DNA from: Myxococcales bacterium UBA5297
GTDB lineage: Bacteria > Myxococcota > Myxococcia > Myxococcales > UBA5297
Length of the DNA: 10,264 bases
Reading direction: 5' to 3'
Assembly (NCBI GenBank): GCA_002408385.1
Contig: DHSB01000061.1
Location: 12,517-22,780 of the forward strand
The notes beneath the pieces were generated by a model. It was not told the DNA's origin. It made no database searches and saw nothing but the letters and a program-made list of their open reading frames with translations. The position numbers were made by a program, and so were the translations under genes. Numbering within the stretch: position 1 is the first letter of the stretch; every line of letters begins with the position of its first letter. Of this stretch, positions 2,996 through 10,140 are shown in pieces.

Positions 2996-3556
2996 GTGCC
3001 GTCGGACGCCGTCGGCGGCGAGCGGACCCAGGCCTCGACCGCGACGGCCGCAGCGCCCTCGGGCGCCGCGAGCGCCGACGAGGATCGCCGGGAGATGGAG
3101 CGCCTTCGCGAGCGCCTCGCCCAGCTCGAGGAGAGGGTGAGGGCCGAGACCCGGCAGCGGCGCGAAGCGGTCGGCGAGCCGGTCACGCCCCCGGAGAACC
3201 TCGACCGGCGCTTCGGACAGGAGGCGGTCGTCGCCGCGGTCAACTCGGCGCTTCGCGACATCGGCCTGCGAGGCGAGGTGACGGCGGCCGACTGCGCGGA
3301 GTATCCCTGCCTCGTCATCGGCGAGGCCGCCGAGCCCTTCGACCGCGACCGCTCGCAGGCGCTGCGGGCCTCGGACGCGTTTCGGCCCTACGGCGAGGAC
3401 CGGACCCTGGGCTTCGGCATCTCGGTCGGCGAGGGGCGCAAGCACGTGTTCGGCCTGGCGGTCTTCGCCCGCGTCCACGGCGAAGCTGAAGAGGCGCGGA
3501 TCCGCAAGCGCGTCGACTACCGCTTCTGGCAGCTCCAGGCGGACGAGCTGAAGTAG
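2996..3556 (+). CDS. Hypothetical coiled-coil protein, probably membrane-anchored if extended upstream
   Basis: I do not recognise this 186-residue product. After a low-complexity Ala/Ser/Thr stretch (about residues 13-27) comes a charged heptad-like helix rich in Glu, Arg and Leu (about 28-60), a likely coiled coil. A globular C-terminal domain follows from about residue 65, with a DCAEYPCL motif at 99-106 whose C100 and C105 could form a disulfide. Short Cys pairs of this kind occur, from memory, in anchored extracytoplasmic proteins of Myxococcota. GTG 2996 is the first conventional start in frame but has no convincing ribosome site. The coding signal continues upstream to 2864 and would add a membrane helix, so the true protein is probably about 230 residues. 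It lies immediately downstream of uvrA and may share its transcript. A role in DNA repair is not implied. Confidence 0.7.
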   Translation: MPSDAVGGERTQASTATAAAPSGAASADEDRREMERLRERLAQLEERVRAETRQRREAVGEPVTPPENLDRRFGQEAVVAAVNSALRDIGLRGEVTAADCAEYPCLVIGEAAEPFDRDRSQALRASDAFRPYGEDRTLGFGISVGEGRKHVFGLAVFARVHGEAEEARIRKRVDYRFWQLQADELK

Positions 3557-3834: not shown

Positions 3835-4122
3835 ATGGCCAAGACGGCGCAGTTCACGACGACCGAAGCTGGCGAGGCCTACTTCAAGCGCCTGATGGAG
3901 CTCGGAGTCTTCGAAGGGGTCCCGAAGACCATGGCCCTGAGCGCCGAGTGCCGCCCGCTGATCGAGGCGCTCCACCACGTCCTCGCCGGGGGCAAGGTCT
4001 CCGTCACGGTCGAGTCCGAGGGGGCCGTCTCGGTGTTCGAGGACCTGCAGGACAAGCTCGCCAAGAGCGTCGAAGAGGCCAACTCGCTCAACGCCGCCGG
4101 AACCCTGGTGGCCAGCCCCTAG
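3835..4122 (+). CDS. Hypothetical 95-residue protein
   Basis: I do not recognise this gene. The start is ATG 3835, supported by GAGG at 3825-3828 with six bases of spacing. The same frame is open further upstream but has no comparable ribosome site there. The product is soluble-looking, with no signal peptide or membrane helix. It begins with a Thr-rich stretch (FTTTEAGEAYF), has a single Cys (AECRPL, about residues 38-43) and no Trp, and ends with a short polar tail. Alternating helix (ECRPLIEALHHVL) and strand (KVSVTVES) propensities suggest a small alpha/beta fold. It lies upstream of the histidine kinase gene on the same strand, separated by 133 bases and two hairpins, so a shared transcript is possible but unproven. 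It does not look like a ComX-type pheromone precursor, because it lacks a C-terminal Trp or CaaX-like end. Confidence 0.75.
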   Translation: MAKTAQFTTTEAGEAYFKRLMELGVFEGVPKTMALSAECRPLIEALHHVLAGGKVSVTVESEGAVSVFEDLQDKLAKSVEEANSLNAAGTLVASP

Positions 4123-4255: not shown

Positions 4256-5584
4256 ATGGTGCGCCGTTTCAGACAGTGGGCCGAGAGCATCCTGCCCAAC
4301 TTCCAAGCCGCCTCCACCCTCGGGTCCTGGGCCGCAACCGCCGCTATCGCCGGGTTGATGGTCTTCGCCGCGACCCGGTTTTTCACCGACGACTACTTTC
4401 AGCTCCGTCCTGCCTGGGCGCTGGTCGCCTTCGCGATCGCCGCGGTGCTCGATCTCATCGCCGGGCGCGTCCCCAAGCGCGGCAACGGCGTGCTCGCCTT
4501 CGGCGCCATCAACGTCATCGGCAGCTTTTTTCTTCAGCTCTTCTCCGGGCTGCTGATGGTGAGCTCGAATCCCTGGGGCGCGGCGGTCTTCTCCCCGATG
4601 CTCCTGCTGACCGCGCTCTACCACGGCCACCTTCACCGCGCGACGCCCCGGCACCCCTACCAGTCACTCGCGTCGCTGGTGGCGGTGGTCGCGACCGCCT
4701 CGCTGTGCCCCACCGGCCAGCACCTGGCCATCGTCGCCGTCTCTGGCCCGGTGGCGGTCTTCGGCTCGCTGGTCTTCGGGGTCATCTCCGTGCGCGGCGA
4801 CCGGATGCGCTCGGAATCGGAGCGGCTGCGGGCCGCGATCTCCGCGCAGATGATCCGCGAGCAGTCCACCCGCGTCGACCGGCTCGCGAACACGCTCGAG
4901 CAGCTCTCGATGTGGAACCACGACATGCGCAACGCGCTCACGGTGGTCGCCGGTCACTCGAAGCTGCTCGCGAGCATCGACCCCGACGAATACGCCAACC
5001 CCGAATCCGCTGAAGACGCCCGCAACAGCGTGGATCTCATCCGCAGCAACCTGCGGCTCGTGACCGAGGGCCTGGATCGGATGCGCGAGATCGCCAAGCA
5101 GCACAACGCCGAGCTCACCAGCGCAGAGCTCGTCGAGGTCCTGCCCATCGCGCGGGCCGTCGCGCAGGCCGCGCTCGTGCGGTTCCCCGACGCGGACATC
5201 AAAGTCATCACGCGCTCCTCGGCCTCCGCTGTGCGGGTTCGCGTCAACGGCGGCGGCGTGACGCTGCACCGCGCGCTCGAGAACCTGGTCGTCAACGCCT
5301 GCGAGGGCGACGGCAGCCGCGGCGCGCGTTGCGTCGAGGTCTGCGTCGAGCCGACCGGCGACAACGTCGTGGTCGAAGTGATCGACGACGGCCCCGGCTT
5401 CACGCGCGAACAGCTCGCGCAGGGCGTCATCGGCTTCCAGACCTCGAAGAGCCACGGGACCGGTCTCGGCCTCTACACGGTCGAGCGCCTGGTCGCCGCA
5501 AGCGGCGGCTCGCTGGCGCGCGACAATCGGGACGCCGGCGGCGCCTGCGTCGCCCTGCGCCTGCCAGCCGGTGAGGCTGCATGA
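4256..5584 (+). CDS. Membrane sensor histidine kinase with six predicted transmembrane helices
   Basis: This is a 442-residue two-component sensor kinase. It would autophosphorylate on His and pass phosphate to a response regulator that is not in this window. Hydrophobic segments lie at about residues 23-40, 53-69, 79-103, 107-122, 137-151 and 157-178, with very short loops between them, so the sensor is the membrane bundle itself and not a periplasmic domain. A charged helix leads into the dimerisation domain with the H-box NHDMRNALT; His222 is the likely phosphosite. The ATPase domain has the N-box ENLVVNAC (342-349), the G1 box DDGPGF (377-382), an F-box-like GFQTSK and the G2 box GTGLGL (401-406). 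All are intact. ATG 4256 is chosen for the AGGAA at 4248-4252. GTG 4166 would add 30 Arg/Ala-rich residues and lies in a hairpin. The stop overlaps the next start (ATGA, 5581-5584), implying coupled translation. Ligand unknown. Confidence 0.93.
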   Translation: MVRRFRQWAESILPNFQAASTLGSWAATAAIAGLMVFAATRFFTDDYFQLRPAWALVAFAIAAVLDLIAGRVPKRGNGVLAFGAINVIGSFFLQLFSGLLMVSSNPWGAAVFSPMLLLTALYHGHLHRATPRHPYQSLASLVAVVATASLCPTGQHLAIVAVSGPVAVFGSLVFGVISVRGDRMRSESERLRAAISAQMIREQSTRVDRLANTLEQLSMWNHDMRNALTVVAGHSKLLASIDPDEYANPESAEDARNSVDLIRSNLRLVTEGLDRMREIAKQHNAELTSAELVEVLPIARAVAQAALVRFPDADIKVITRSSASAVRVRVNGGGVTLHRALENLVVNACEGDGSRGARCVEVCVEPTGDNVVVEVIDDGPGFTREQLAQGVIGFQTSKSHGTGLGLYTVERLVAASGGSLARDNRDAGGACVALRLPAGEAA

Positions 5585-7152
5585 GCGGCGGGGGCGTCTT
5601 TCGCCGCGCGCTCTGCCTGGTGCGCGAGAAAGACCTGCCCCTTGAGGCCGAGCGCGATCTCGTGGCCGCGCTCGAGGCTGCGCGCTCGGGCCCGCTCGAT
5701 TTCTGCTACCGGGCCGGCGTCGATGCCGGGCTCGAACGCGACGCGCTCCTGCTGCGCTCGGCTGCCATCCTCTTCAACTTCGCCTCGGCCAACCTCGCCG
5801 ACGACCTCGCCGACGGAGACTGCGACTACCTCGCTCCGCGGGCCGCGCCGGGGGTCCAGTACGTCCTCCACTGCCTCTTCTTCGAGACGCTCGCGCGCAC
5901 GGGCTCTACTCCGGAGCAGTTGGCGTCGCTCTCCGCTCAGCTCGCCGCGGCCGCGGCGCCGCACAGCATCGAGGTGCGGACCACGGCCTGGAGCCTCGCC
6001 ACGGCGAAGCAGATAGCCTTGGGCCTCGCGGGCGAGCAGTACTCGGTCTACCTGCAGATCCTCTGGGCCGGCACCCGGCTCGAGCCCCGCGCCGCGGAAA
6101 TCGGCCGGGCTCTCGGCCTGTCGGCGCACGTCGCCATCGACCTCGCCACCGGTGACCGTCGAGCCTCCAGCCTGCCGGCCGGCGAGCGGCGCGCCCTCGC
6201 CGAGTGGGCGTTGAGGGCGGCCGAACGGCTGGGGCGCGAGCGCCTGCCCTGCCTCGCGGCGGTGCTCGGCGGGGTCGTTCACACGCTGCGCGAGGCGGCC
6301 GAATCGGCGCGACCCTTCGAGCCGGCACAGGTCGTCGCGTACTACGCCGCCAGGACCCCCTCGATCCTGCGCAAGTTCGGGCCGGGGCCGCGGGTGCACT
6401 ATCACACCGGCCTCTGGTCCGGACCCGTCTCACCGGACTGGACGACCGACGGGCTGCGACGGCACCTGGTCGCAGCCCAGGAGCGCCTGCTCGAGCACGT
6501 CGCCGAGCGCTGGCAGGCCTCCGCGGCTCTGCGCGGCGCGGTGCTCGACGCGGGGTGCGGTCTCGGCGGCGGCGCGATCTTCTGGGCCCAGCGATTCGGC
6601 GCGCGGGTCACGGCGGTGACCAACGTCCCCGAGCACCTCGAGCTCCTCCGCACCTTCGCCGCCCAGGCCGGCGTCGCCGAGCGAATCGAGCCGCTGCTCT
6701 GCGACGCCGAGCGGGTGCCGGGAGCCGCGCGCTTCGACGCCGCGGTCGCCATCGAAGCGAGCTGCTACTTCGCTCGCCAGGCTTGGTTCGAGCGCCTCTC
6801 GCACCTCTTGCGGCCGCAGGGACGCATCTTCGTCGTCGACTGCTTCCTCGGCCGCCCGGAGGCCGCCGGCTTCTTCGACGGTCATTGGCGCACCCGCATC
6901 GGCACGCTCGAGGAGTACGAGGCGGCGGCCGCCAGCGCGGGCTTTCGGACCGAGTCCATCGAGGAGCTCAACGAGCTCAGCTCGGGCTTCTGGGAGCTCA
7001 CCCTCGCCTGGACGCGAAAGGTGGCGCAGGAGCGCGGTGCTCCCGAGCCTGACCCCGCGCTCGAGCGCTCACTCCGGGCGCACGAGCTGCTGCACCGCGC
7101 CTATCTCGACCGCGGGGTGCGGCATCTCCAGCTCGTCTTCGGCCGCCGGTAA
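5581..7152 (+). CDS. Fusion of an isoprenyl-diphosphate-synthase-like domain and a SAM methyltransferase
   Basis: This is a 523-residue two-domain protein. Residues 1 to about 235 look like an all-helical trans-isoprenyl diphosphate synthase fold. A first aspartate-rich motif, DDLAD, lies at 74-78 (then GD at 79-80). A second-motif counterpart at 181-192 (SAHVAIDLATGD) keeps only one Asp of the usual DDxxD, and the usual KT pair between them is not evident. Residues from about 250 form a class I SAM-dependent methyltransferase: a substrate-side segment HYHTGLW (273-279), motif I VLDAGCGLGGG (321-331), and an acidic post-II motif AIEASCYF with E392. The end pattern (FWELTLAW, then a YLDRG and LVFGR close) resembles, from memory, geranyl/farnesyl diphosphate C-methyltransferases, whose conserved NES-type Glu would align with E392. 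The likely role is making or binding a prenyl group and methylating it; substrate unknown. Translation is coupled to the kinase through ATGA, with GAGG at 5573-5576. An alternative is a degenerate, non-catalytic N-domain. Confidence 0.85.
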   Translation: MSGGGVFRRALCLVREKDLPLEAERDLVAALEAARSGPLDFCYRAGVDAGLERDALLLRSAAILFNFASANLADDLADGDCDYLAPRAAPGVQYVLHCLFFETLARTGSTPEQLASLSAQLAAAAAPHSIEVRTTAWSLATAKQIALGLAGEQYSVYLQILWAGTRLEPRAAEIGRALGLSAHVAIDLATGDRRASSLPAGERRALAEWALRAAERLGRERLPCLAAVLGGVVHTLREAAESARPFEPAQVVAYYAARTPSILRKFGPGPRVHYHTGLWSGPVSPDWTTDGLRRHLVAAQERLLEHVAERWQASAALRGAVLDAGCGLGGGAIFWAQRFGARVTAVTNVPEHLELLRTFAAQAGVAERIEPLLCDAERVPGAARFDAAVAIEASCYFARQAWFERLSHLLRPQGRIFVVDCFLGRPEAAGFFDGHWRTRIGTLEEYEAAAASAGFRTESIEELNELSSGFWELTLAWTRKVAQERGAPEPDPALERSLRAHELLHRAYLDRGVRHLQLVFGRR

Positions 7153-7553: not shown

Positions 7554-7582
7554 GTAGGGACTTGACCAAGGAGAACCTGTCC

Positions 7583-8467
7583 ATGCGCAGAAGACGATCG
7601 ACATCACGAACGATAGGTGGAGGCCTGCTGGCCGCAGTGCTCCTCGGAGCCCTGCCCGCGGGCGCCCAGTCCATCCAGGACCGCCTGGTCTTTCACCCCA
7701 ACCTCCAGACCGATCTGCGGCCGACCCTCGAGCACCCGATGAGGCTCGGGGCCCGCGGCGAGTTGAAGGCGGCCGAGCCGGTCTGGACTCGCTCCGGGCT
7801 GTGGGCCACCCGTCCCGAGCGGCTCTGGGGGCTCGCCAAGACCGAGGCCTCCGGCCAGCCGGTCTGGGACCCGAGCACCAACGCCTGGTACGCGTGGTCG
7901 ATGGGCGCGCTGGTCGAGGTCAAGCCCGACGGCAGGCTGTCGGTGCTGCTCGACCCGATGCCCGGCTGGGACTTCGACATCCGCGCGGCCCAAGGGCTCG
8001 TCGTCTACCGGGATCCGAACAAGAACGTCATCGTCCTTCGCACCCTCGGCCCCGCCGGCGGGGAGCGCATCCTGCTGAGCGGCGAGAGCTACTTCGAGCC
8101 GCGGTTCTCTCCCAACGGCCGCCAGATCGTCGTCTCGGACAGCAGCACCACCGCCGGCACGCTGTGGCTGGTCACCGTCGCCACCGGAGAGGTGCGCAGG
8201 CTCGGGTCCGGGCACCAACCAAGCTGGCATCCCGATAGCCAAAGCATCTTCTTCATGCGCTTCGAGGACGACGGGTATCGCCTGACCGCCTCGCGCCTCT
8301 ACTCCCACAATCTCGCGTCCAACCAGCGGCGGCTGCTCGCCGCCAGCAAGTCGATCCTCATGACCCGCCCCACGGTCTCGCCCGACGGCGAGGGGATCGC
8401 GTACTACGACGAGGCCAGCTCCGAAGTTTTCGTCGCTCGTCTCCCGAACGCGGAGGGCGGACGATGA
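7583..8467 (+). CDS. Exported PD40/TolB-like beta-propeller protein
   Basis: This is a 294-residue exported protein. ATG 7583 is chosen because a full AAGGAG lies at 7568-7573, nine bases upstream; TTG 7562 in the same frame has no such site. The signal peptide has an Arg-rich start (RRRR at 2-5), a hydrophobic core (about 11-24) and a cleavage site after AGA at residue 28. The mature part carries WD40-like PD40 repeats, as in the TolB propeller: PRFSPNGRQIVV (from 173), PSWHPDSQSIFF (from 213) and RPTVSPDGEGIAYY (from 262), with at least one more degenerate blade near PVWDPSTNAWYAW. Such propellers usually serve as protein-binding platforms in the periplasm. No catalytic motif is seen, and it lacks the N-terminal domain of true TolB. 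Its stop overlaps the amidase start by ATGA, so the two are likely made in fixed ratio and may work together. The exact partner is unknown. Confidence 0.9.
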   Translation: MRRRRSTSRTIGGGLLAAVLLGALPAGAQSIQDRLVFHPNLQTDLRPTLEHPMRLGARGELKAAEPVWTRSGLWATRPERLWGLAKTEASGQPVWDPSTNAWYAWSMGALVEVKPDGRLSVLLDPMPGWDFDIRAAQGLVVYRDPNKNVIVLRTLGPAGGERILLSGESYFEPRFSPNGRQIVVSDSSTTAGTLWLVTVATGEVRRLGSGHQPSWHPDSQSIFFMRFEDDGYRLTASRLYSHNLASNQRRLLAASKSILMTRPTVSPDGEGIAYYDEASSEVFVARLPNAEGGR

Positions 8468-10140
8468 GAATGATCATCCTGCTGGCCGCGCTGCTCGTCC
8501 TTCCTTCGACGGCAACCGCACAAAAGGTCTTCCTCAACTACAGCGACCAATCGAACACGGTCTCCGGCGGCGGCCTGGAGAAGGACTACGCGACGATCAT
8601 CGCGGGGCACACGCGCGACATCCTCACCGCGAACGGTTTCACGCTCCGGCTCAACCAGAGCTTCTACGACTGCAACGCCGACGCAAACAGTTGGGGCGCC
8701 CAGGTCTTCATGAGCATCCACTCCAACGCTGGCGGAGGACACGGACCCGAGAGCTGGTTCGGCGTGCCCTCGGGCAGCCAGGCGTTCGCTTCGAAGATCC
8801 AGTCGGGGCTGACGGGCAAGCTGCCGTATCAGAGCCGGGGCGTGAAGGACGCCTCCGACGGGCGCTATCGGGTCCTGCGGCTCGCCCAGCAGCCGGCCTG
8901 CCTTCCGGAGGTCGTCTTCCACGACTGCACGGCCACCTCGGGCTACGCCGGCCACCCGCCATCGGAGTCTGCCTACTTGAGGAGCGACGCCGGCCAGAGG
9001 GCGATCGCCGCAGGCCTCGCCAACGGCGTCTGCCAGCACTTCAAGGGCGCGAACTGCTCGGGTGGCTCGACTCCCGCCAACGGCTCCATCAAGGGCGTCG
9101 TCTACAAGAACGGCGACACCACCGACCACATCGCCCCGGCCACCGTCAGACTCAACACCGGCGCGACGACGACCTACAACGGCAGCGCCGTCTGGTCCTT
9201 CGACGTCCCTCCGGGCAGCAGCTACTCGATCACCGCCAGCGCGACCGGCTACAAGACCGGCACCCGGACCTGCCCGGCCGTGGTCTCCGGCGACATCGCC
9301 TGGTGCAGCATCGAGCTCGAGCCGGACACCACGTCGCAGAAGGGCTTCATCAAGGGCGTGGTCTACAAGAACGGCGACACCACCAACCACGTCTTCCCCG
9401 CCAACGTCTCGCTCAACACCGGCGCCTCGACCACCTACGACGGCAGCGCCGTCTGGTCGTTCGAGGTCAACCCCGGGACCTACTCGGTCACCGCCTCGGC
9501 AAGCGGCTACCAGACCGCGACCCGCAGCGACTGCGAGCCGGTCGTCGCCGGGGGCACCGCCTGGTGCAGCGTCGAGCTCGTGGCGCAGGTTCAGCCGCCG
9601 CAGAAGGGCTTCCTCAAGGGCGTCGTCTACCAGAACGGCGACACGAACAGCCACGTCGCGCCGGCGACGGTGACCCTCGGGACGGGCGAGTCGACGACCT
9701 ACGGCGGGACCGCCGACTGGTCGTTCGAGCTCGCTCCGGGCAGCTACACGGTGACCGCGACCGCGAGCGGCTATCAGTCGGCGACCAAGGCCTGCCCCCA
9801 GCCGGTCGTCGCCGGACAGACCGCGCGCTGTGATGTCGAGCTCGAGAGAATCCCCGAGCCGGAGCCGGACGCGGGGATCGTCGAGCCCGAACCCGACGCG
9901 GGCGACGAGCCTCCTGTCGACGCCGGTGTCGACGCCGGTGTCGAGCCCGAGCCCGAGCCCGAGAAGGACGCGGGCATCAGCCCTCCGCCGGTGGACGCCG
10001 GGACCGAGCCCGGGCCTCGGACCGTGCCCGAAATCGAAGGTGGCTCGTGTGGCTGCAGCTCGACCTCGAGCGGGCTCTTCGGGCTGCTCGCCCTTCCCTT
10101 CTTCGCCGCGGGCCAGTTGCGCCGCCGGCGCGAGCGGTAG
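8464..10140 (+). CDS. Exported N-acetylmuramoyl-L-alanine amidase-like protein with three Ig-like repeats and MYXO-CTERM tail
   Basis: This is a 558-residue secreted, modular protein. A signal peptide (residues 1-19, cut at ATA|QK) is followed by an Amidase_3-type domain (about 20-195) of the zinc enzymes that cut the MurNAc-L-Ala bond of peptidoglycan. It keeps E39 (GGGLEKDY), the SIHSNA motif with H86, and E149 (LPEVVF), which match the family's zinc and catalytic positions. The first zinc His of the usual GHGG motif is replaced by YSDQSN (26-31), with Q29 the likely counterpart. Three tandem repeats of about 87 residues begin at 207, 294 and 382; each resembles a carboxypeptidase-regulatory-like Ig fold and carries two Cys. 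A Pro/Glu/Asp-Ala-Gly linker (about 464-519) and a sorting tail (526-558) follow. The start ATG 8464 has GGAGGG at 8452-8457 and overlaps the propeller stop by ATGA. Expected location: outer surface. Catalytic activity is likely but not certain given the missing His. Confidence 0.9.
   Translation: MRMIILLAALLVLPSTATAQKVFLNYSDQSNTVSGGGLEKDYATIIAGHTRDILTANGFTLRLNQSFYDCNADANSWGAQVFMSIHSNAGGGHGPESWFGVPSGSQAFASKIQSGLTGKLPYQSRGVKDASDGRYRVLRLAQQPACLPEVVFHDCTATSGYAGHPPSESAYLRSDAGQRAIAAGLANGVCQHFKGANCSGGSTPANGSIKGVVYKNGDTTDHIAPATVRLNTGATTTYNGSAVWSFDVPPGSSYSITASATGYKTGTRTCPAVVSGDIAWCSIELEPDTTSQKGFIKGVVYKNGDTTNHVFPANVSLNTGASTTYDGSAVWSFEVNPGTYSVTASASGYQTATRSDCEPVVAGGTAWCSVELVAQVQPPQKGFLKGVVYQNGDTNSHVAPATVTLGTGESTTYGGTADWSFELAPGSYTVTATASGYQSATKACPQPVVAGQTARCDVELERIPEPEPDAGIVEPEPDAGDEPPVDAGVDAGVEPEPEPEKDAGISPPPVDAGTEPGPRTVPEIEGGSCGCSSTSSGLFGLLALPFFAAGQLRRRRER
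9082..9846 (+). repeat. Three tandem coding repeats in the amidase gene
   Basis: Units begin at 9082, 9343 and 9607, spaced 261 and 264 bases. Each encodes the pattern KGVVY-x-NGDT near its start, then TTY-x-G, WSF, PG-x-Y, a GY and two Cys near its end. Units 1 and 2 match at about 53 of their first 60 bases. That is much closer than protein function alone demands, suggesting a fairly recent duplication or ongoing homogenisation. The third unit is more diverged. Confidence 0.92.
9853..10020 (+). repeat. Low-complexity Pro/Glu and Asp-Ala-Gly linker
   Basis: The codons here encode a rigid acidic linker with six Asp-Ala-Gly units interleaved with Glu-Pro runs and a few Pro-Pro steps. Linkers of this type precede or follow anchors in many exported Myxococcota proteins. 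It presumably spaces the amidase and Ig-like repeats away from the membrane anchor. Confidence 0.85.
10039..10140 (+). other. MYXO-CTERM-type C-terminal sorting signal
   Basis: The last 33 residues have the tripartite form of this signal: a Cys motif (GGSCGCSS, with C529 and C531), a hydrophobic helix (about 537-550) and a terminal Arg cluster (RRRRER). In the Myxococcota such tails are recognised by a myxosortase, which cleaves near the Cys so that the protein is sorted to the surface. The call is by pattern only; no profile score was computed. Confidence 0.85.

Follow-up and report, generated by a model that had tools for sequence, protein, structure and literature searches.

A fused prenyl-synthase-fold and methyltransferase protein in a conserved histidine kinase cassette of Myxococcota: a possible methyl-isoprenoid signaling locus

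Relation to described isoprenoid systems

In a published census, the known pairing of an isoprenyl transferase with a sensor kinase is of the ComQXPA type and is confined to the Firmicutes, no comQXPA-like loci having been found elsewhere (PMC4008528). Here, a gene cassette with some likeness to ComQXPA and some to bacterial homoterpene pathways was analyzed in a stretch of 10,264 nucleotides (the window; G000:C26:12517-22780) from the genome of Myxococcales bacterium UBA5297 (7.65 Mb, 255 contigs). The cassette encodes, all on the forward strand, a small protein (SM), a membrane histidine kinase (HK) and a fusion protein, the N-terminal half of which (N) has a predicted isoprenoid-synthase fold, whereas the C-terminal half (MT) is related to prenyl-diphosphate methyltransferases. 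We consider it quite plausible, if just short of probable, that the window holds an intact copy, fused in part, of a cassette conserved among myxobacteria, SM-HK-N-MT, and that this operates by the mechanism proposed below. The biosynthetic part of this proposal is probably correct, and the sensing part is put forward tentatively.

In ComQ, the first Asp-rich motif is complete and a pseudo second motif keeps its second Asp only, with N or G as first residue (PMC5331326). ComQ is recognized by PF00348, according to the census (PMC4008528). The ComX precursor comprises 52-73 residues with a Trp near the C terminus, ComP carries PF07730 and PF02518 after its membrane domain, and ComA is encoded adjacently. 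Like this system, the window encodes a synthase-fold enzyme next to a membrane-bound histidine kinase, with a small gene just ahead of the latter. N has the complete first motif and, as mapped by a weak profile alignment together with the fold, a second motif with a lone second Asp; the first residue of this motif, however, is I in the window protein rather than N or G. By contrast, N has no PF00348 match, HK carries PF02518 with PF00512 in place of PF07730, SM lacks the C-terminal Trp, the window contains no receiver, a C-methyltransferase is added and the host lies outside the Bacillota. Membership in ComQXPA was rejected for the lack of PF00348, PF07730, ComX and a response regulator in the window. 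A sequence-only reading of this DNA had proposed a ComP/ComQ-like pair; the synthase fold, the Asp pattern and the kinase neighbor support this in part, and the family markers do not.

The second comparison is with pathways in which a prenyl-diphosphate methyltransferase is paired with a terpene cyclase, as described in PMC12723460 and PMC12929941. These bacterial homoterpene pairs likewise place a C-methyltransferase beside a second isoprenoid enzyme. MT shares sequence, fold, the catalytic Glu and a Phe/Trp pair with two Streptomyces enzymes, BezA, which acts on geranyl diphosphate (GPP), and the C6-farnesyl diphosphate (C6-FPP) methyltransferase of the SvaMT family; unlike these, it is fused to or lies beside N, inside a kinase cassette. 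The second enzyme also differs, having a prenyl-synthase fold rather than being a recognized cyclase, and HK and SM are additions. The class I terpene cyclase model PF19086 gave no match in the host genome, nor did it in any control genome. The cassette as a whole thus belongs neither to ComQXPA nor to the homoterpene enzyme pairs and at best works like both. No description of it was found in the open-licence literature, as judged by titles and the beginnings of abstracts.

Cassette proteins and proposed pathway

The fusion protein (523 residues) is encoded from an ATG at 5581 to a TAA at 7150-7152, and its start codon overlaps the stop codon of HK in an ATGA at 5581-5584, as the sequence-only reading had noted. 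For the N-half (residues 1-243; 5581-6309), a confident predicted model and fold comparison agreed on an isoprenoid-synthase fold, which sustains the earlier assignment of this half. The first Asp-rich motif, DDLAD, occupies residues 74-78 (5800-5814) and includes the DDxxD previously pointed out (D74, D75 and D78). By the model, N is an all-helical protein of the trans-isoprenyl diphosphate synthase fold bearing the first Asp motif of that class. The best Foldseek match was MoeN5 (8.6e-5, 18% identity), a prenyltransferase of moenomycin biosynthesis that has the synthase fold, uses an acceptor other than isopentenyl diphosphate (IPP) and is not known to be encoded in a kinase cassette. Prenyl synthases, and no cyclases, were among the 50 entries listed in the fold comparison, and MoeN5 was not among these.

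Of the 47 N-bearing loci in the genomes surveyed below, 45 retained DDxxD, the exceptions being the two genomes of genus g21; 4 of 120 N homologues fell outside the DDxxD pattern used. Homologues of the cassette proteins were listed as the best 120 of 233, 217 and 266 proteins, the last of these sets being that of SM, and the named relatives belong mostly to Myxococcaceae. The second motif of N is reduced to IDLAT (residues 186-190; 6136-6150), in which the second Asp alone is kept; given the low probability of the hhalign alignment, this residue mapping draws on the fold as well, with which it is consistent. Its first residue is mostly E or K among the best 120 N homologues, and the relatives show an xDIxS/T motif. 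Given that the relatives also have no GKR IPP site and a single Asp in the second motif, they differ from chain-elongating synthases. By sequence, the N family gave no PDB chain at E ≤ 10 and no Pfam match, and PF00348 at E ≤ 1 was absent from the window fusion and from the 13 N-family members tested. N is regarded as an undescribed protein family.

The C-half (residues 244-523 plus stop; 6310-7152) had been read as a S-adenosylmethionine (SAM) methyltransferase, and it can now be named far more precisely. Its best matches by far were BezA (7.8e-62) and the C6-FPP methyltransferase (3.7e-58), and it resembled the structures 7FBH/7FBO and 9TB4 in sequence and fold. A SAM-binding motif, LDAGCGLGGG, is encoded at 6544-6573. 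Glu392 (6754-6756) aligned with Glu165, which according to PMC12929941 is catalytic in the C6-FPP methyltransferase, whose His194 is described there as indispensable; the Phe and the substrate-positioning Trp (W471) were likewise retained by alignment. A Phe stands where the C6-FPP methyltransferase has Ile205 and BezA has Trp210. Thus, MT is a relative of the prenyl-diphosphate C6-methyltransferases, and C6-methylation would be expected from its family. Many MT homologues have no N domain in the same protein. The predicted model of the whole fusion had a predicted template-modeling score (pTM) of 0.55, and no statement is therefore made on how its halves face each other.

HK (442 residues) is encoded at 4256-5584, from an ATG at 4256, preceded by a Shine-Dalgarno-like GAGGAA, to a TGA at 5582-5584. 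HATPase_c was matched at 3.9e-18 and HisKA at 1.3e-5, the latter just below the curated cut-off, and all kinase motifs were present: the phospho-acceptor H222 (4919-4921), N347, G1 (D377) and G2 (G401). Hydropathy analysis gave five peaks above 1.5 across residues 21-180, two of them overlapping, so that the six-helix topology suggested earlier is plausible.

The gene inventory of the sequence-only reading was right on kinase and fusion and overlooked SM (3835-4122; 95 residues), a conserved gene directly ahead of HK. SM had 266 homologues at E ≤ 0.001, and the best 120 of these were all unnamed or “hypothetical.” The window protein gave no match in Pfam or NCBIfam, and nothing credible was found among PDB sequences. 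A known family was sought in scattered weak matches and set aside, DUF5131 being found in 7 of 27 members with a best value of 0.0042, which is not significant. In 27 chosen members, Y, LG, AxHxV and GG were invariant, and conservation extended along the full length; SM, too, is regarded as an undescribed family. Trp occurred anywhere in 9 and Cys in 25 of the best 120 of 266 homologues, the last 15 residues were Trp-free in all 120, and the window SM contains no Trp. SM was rejected as a ComX-like peptide on this Trp content, in line with the earlier remark that neither a response regulator nor such a peptide lies in the window.

These assignments can be joined in the following mechanism. From what is known of its family, MT would use SAM to methylate a prenyl diphosphate of the C10 or C15 class at C6, and N would bind an allylic diphosphate through Mg2+ at DDxxD. 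Because the IPP site is lacking and the second Asp motif is incomplete, N would not elongate; with SM, it might instead transfer the diphosphate substrate to an acceptor or ionize it to a terpenoid. Fusion would couple the MT and N steps. The product would be lipophilic and may partition into the membrane, where the co-translated HK sits. In the least certain step, HK may sense this product or control its production. A bolder form of the proposal, which we rate as rather unlikely, has a C6-methylated isoprenoid pheromone, produced by SM, N and MT, perceived by the membrane part of HK. The cassette would then be a Myxococcota equivalent of ComQXPA that needs no peptide, and the kinases of some lineages, having lost phosphotransfer, would serve as membrane receptors only. 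Stigmolone was considered as the product and dropped, its skeleton being unlike a C6-methylated terpene.

Distribution of the cassette

Of 195 genomes of the phylum that were searched, 65, including that of the window, gave a match at E ≤ 1e-20, and the surroundings of the 64 non-own loci were searched for SM, HK, N and MT. HK was part of the cassette at 60 of the 64. Recurrence of the gene set in so many genomes is more than chance, and a refuting condition named beforehand by the sequence-only reading, that homologues of the fusion gene mostly lack a kinase neighbor, did not hold within the phylum; at three loci outside it, no HK was found beside the enzymes.

The order SM-HK-N-MT was observed in 35 genomes of genera g36, g24 and g25, among which the SM of G131 is shortened and went undetected by the family search. 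At all 7 loci of g19 and g37 the order was SM-HK-N with no MT, and at all 16 of g22, which may be Corallococcus, it was HK-MT with neither N nor SM. HK is thus the part retained where N or MT is missing. The MT motif GCGLGG was kept at all 35 loci of the first group and altered at all 16 of g22 (9 read GSVLGG, the others are glycine-rich). With HK His replaced at 12 of the 16 as well, the g22 module (L047, L048, L049 and L086-L098) looks as if it were decaying or taking another role. G160, which belongs to the window's own family, has SM-HK-N near a contig end, and contig edges lie close to N in both G160 and G159. The four loci with no HK were those of G073 and G074 (g21), in which N has no DDxxD and MT is degenerate, G159, where the contig starts within N, and G022. 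In G111, an N-MT fusion is followed by a DyP-type peroxidase gene and then by SM-HK. Such peroxidase genes (L037:13088-14122, L043:4066-4914, L045:6776-7624, L050:10903-11901 and others, including g21) were rejected as cassette members, being found at only 14 of 65 loci, one of them partial, and absent from the window.

In Myxococcaceae, N and MT are mostly separate adjoining genes, and the two adjoin at 38 of the 47 N-bearing loci, two of these in the degenerate g21. On the N tree (32 sequences), at least two switches between fusion and separate genes are seen; the trees were built from 32 and 31 selected sequences, and long branches in them were flagged. None of 10 flanking genes examined around the window had a counterpart at 12 other loci, and four Myxococcus-type loci had 0-2 flanking genes in common with five loci of the Stigmatella, Hyalangium or Archangium type. 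Mere inheritance of gene order is argued against by these differing flanks together with the switches between fusion and separate genes. Among Myxococcus-type loci and within g21/g22, up to 8 flanking genes were common, and there the locus itself was therefore inherited. A separate scan of 20 loci, largely overlapping the 64, included Myxococcus xanthus (strain AM003 carries the cassette), Pyxidicoccus, Hyalangium and Archangium and found HK at 19, the exception being L071.

SM homologues were found at 43 of the 47 N-bearing loci and at none of the 17 N-less ones, a count that omits G131, in which the shortened SM is visible, G073, G074 and G159. SM also lies beside N at all 3 loci outside the phylum and, in Myxococcota cassettes, adjoins HK on the upstream side. 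SM-N is the most constant pair, with MT and HK as variable partners, which suggests that SM is a likely partner of N or, less likely, its substrate. Taken with the ComQ-like motif pattern of N, this co-occurrence and the position of SM would suit a route in which N attaches a (methylated) prenyl group to SM, as a signal or as a membrane-anchored partner of HK, in a peptide analogue of ComX. Such a route appears improbable, since neither Trp nor Cys is conserved among the best 120 of 266 SM homologues and SM is conserved throughout, unlike ComX, which PMC4008528 describes as hypervariable. Moreover, we noticed neither a leader peptidase nor an exporter in the cassettes, and the absence of SM from N-less Myxococcota loci comes mainly from one clade, so that the SM-N link there reflects few independent losses.

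Of the three loci outside the phylum, the groundwater metagenome-assembled genome (MAG) locus L071 (genome G195) has SM-N-MT, its MT being of the sequence type with no N in the same protein and adjoining a separate N gene, and G600 and G601 have SM-N; the stretch fetched for G600 ends next to SM. The L071 group presumably represents another phylum, given that its sampled members outnumber those of the window's phylum (195 genomes); N was found in 3 of 148 genomes of its class and in 1 of 395 sampled in its phylum. Such SM-N and SM-N-MT loci with no adjacent HK would fit ordinary homoterpene biosynthesis, in which N is a diverged terpene cyclase acting on an MT-methylated precursor and HK regulates expression upon an unrelated envelope cue. 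The xDIxS/T of N relatives also resembles the start of the cyclase motif NDxxSxxxE. Precedent exists in the methyltransferase and cyclase pathways cited above. This explanation is judged less likely than the preferred one, though far from remote: prenyl synthases and no cyclases appeared among the 50 entries of the fold comparison, and HK is retained when either enzyme is lost.

Role of the kinase and surrounding genes

Returning to the proposal that HK is tied to a methyl-isoprenoid product, a number of observations weigh against it. Genome kinship (INDEPENDENCE) means that the 60 of 64 loci with HK are not 60 independent events. Archangium-type loci lack MT and g22 lacks N; hence neither enzyme invariably requires the other. 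No HK was found beside the enzymes at the three outside loci (stretches of ∼5, 9 and 16 kb), and it is therefore not an obligate partner; a search of the whole G195 genome with the cassette HK of MAG locus L073 gave kinase-domain matches only. Both g21 loci are without HK in the 19 kb fetched around each, and none adjoins the partly missing MT, the sole cassette gene, of G022. On the enzyme side, the N profile aligned only weakly with 27 myxobacterial synthases (hhalign local E 0.0017, probability 15%), and His194 of the C6-FPP methyltransferase corresponds to Cys421 in the window, although BezA likewise does without this His and has Val there.

The kinase itself also provides contrary evidence. 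In aligned columns, the phospho-acceptor His was replaced in 25 of 60 cassette kinases (7/7 in g24, 1/1 in g25, 5/27 in g36 and 12/16 in g22), which weakens a simple sensing circuit, and at 13 loci the acceptor is gone in the presence of a full, intact enzyme set. No receiver or response regulator was found in the window. A receiver-only gene occurs at 7 of the 64 loci, all in g19/g37, and each of the 7 has Ala in place of the predicted phospho-Asp. At L073, where the order is REC-SM-HK-N-MT, the receiver has Asp at the phospho position; receiver-only proteins upstream of SM are encoded at L046:12067-12432 and L073:3979-4335. In our reading, the two-component circuit has eroded in several lineages in which the enzymes were retained.

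The replaced His, the scarcity and Ala substitution of receivers and the HK-free g21 loci would all be expected if HK were a passenger, held in place by inherited gene order with no functional tie to the enzymes. We assign this view a low probability: HK persists where N or MT is missing, the g21 loci that have lost it also have N with no DDxxD and a degenerate MT, flanks differ between genera around a constant cassette, and the window HK keeps all its motifs. On the reading preferred here, retention of HK beside methyl-isoprenoid enzymes in Myxococcus, Pyxidicoccus, Stigmatella, Hyalangium and, with MT missing, Archangium would make a non-peptide isoprenoid signal directly testable in tractable laboratory myxobacteria. 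In addition, the locus brings to light two undescribed protein families, SM and N, and its methyltransferases might widen homoterpene chemistry to include Myxococcota.

Around the cassette, a 186-residue frame at 2996-3556, upstream of SM, gave no Pfam match, and positions 26-2863 hold a complete, ordinary uvrA (NCBIfam equivalog). Downstream, a PD40 beta-propeller protein (7562-8467) precedes a gene (8464-10140) for an Amidase_3 domain with three carboxypeptidase-regulatory-like repeats and a MYXO-CTERM tail, the latter in keeping with a genome of myxobacterial type. Further upstream on the window's contig, L003:11-6864 contains type III-B CRISPR effector genes by PADLOC models: a partial Cas10/Cmr2 at the contig end and Cmr3, Cmr4, Cmr5 and Cmr6, followed by CARF-HEPN (Csx1-like) and CARF-RelE proteins.

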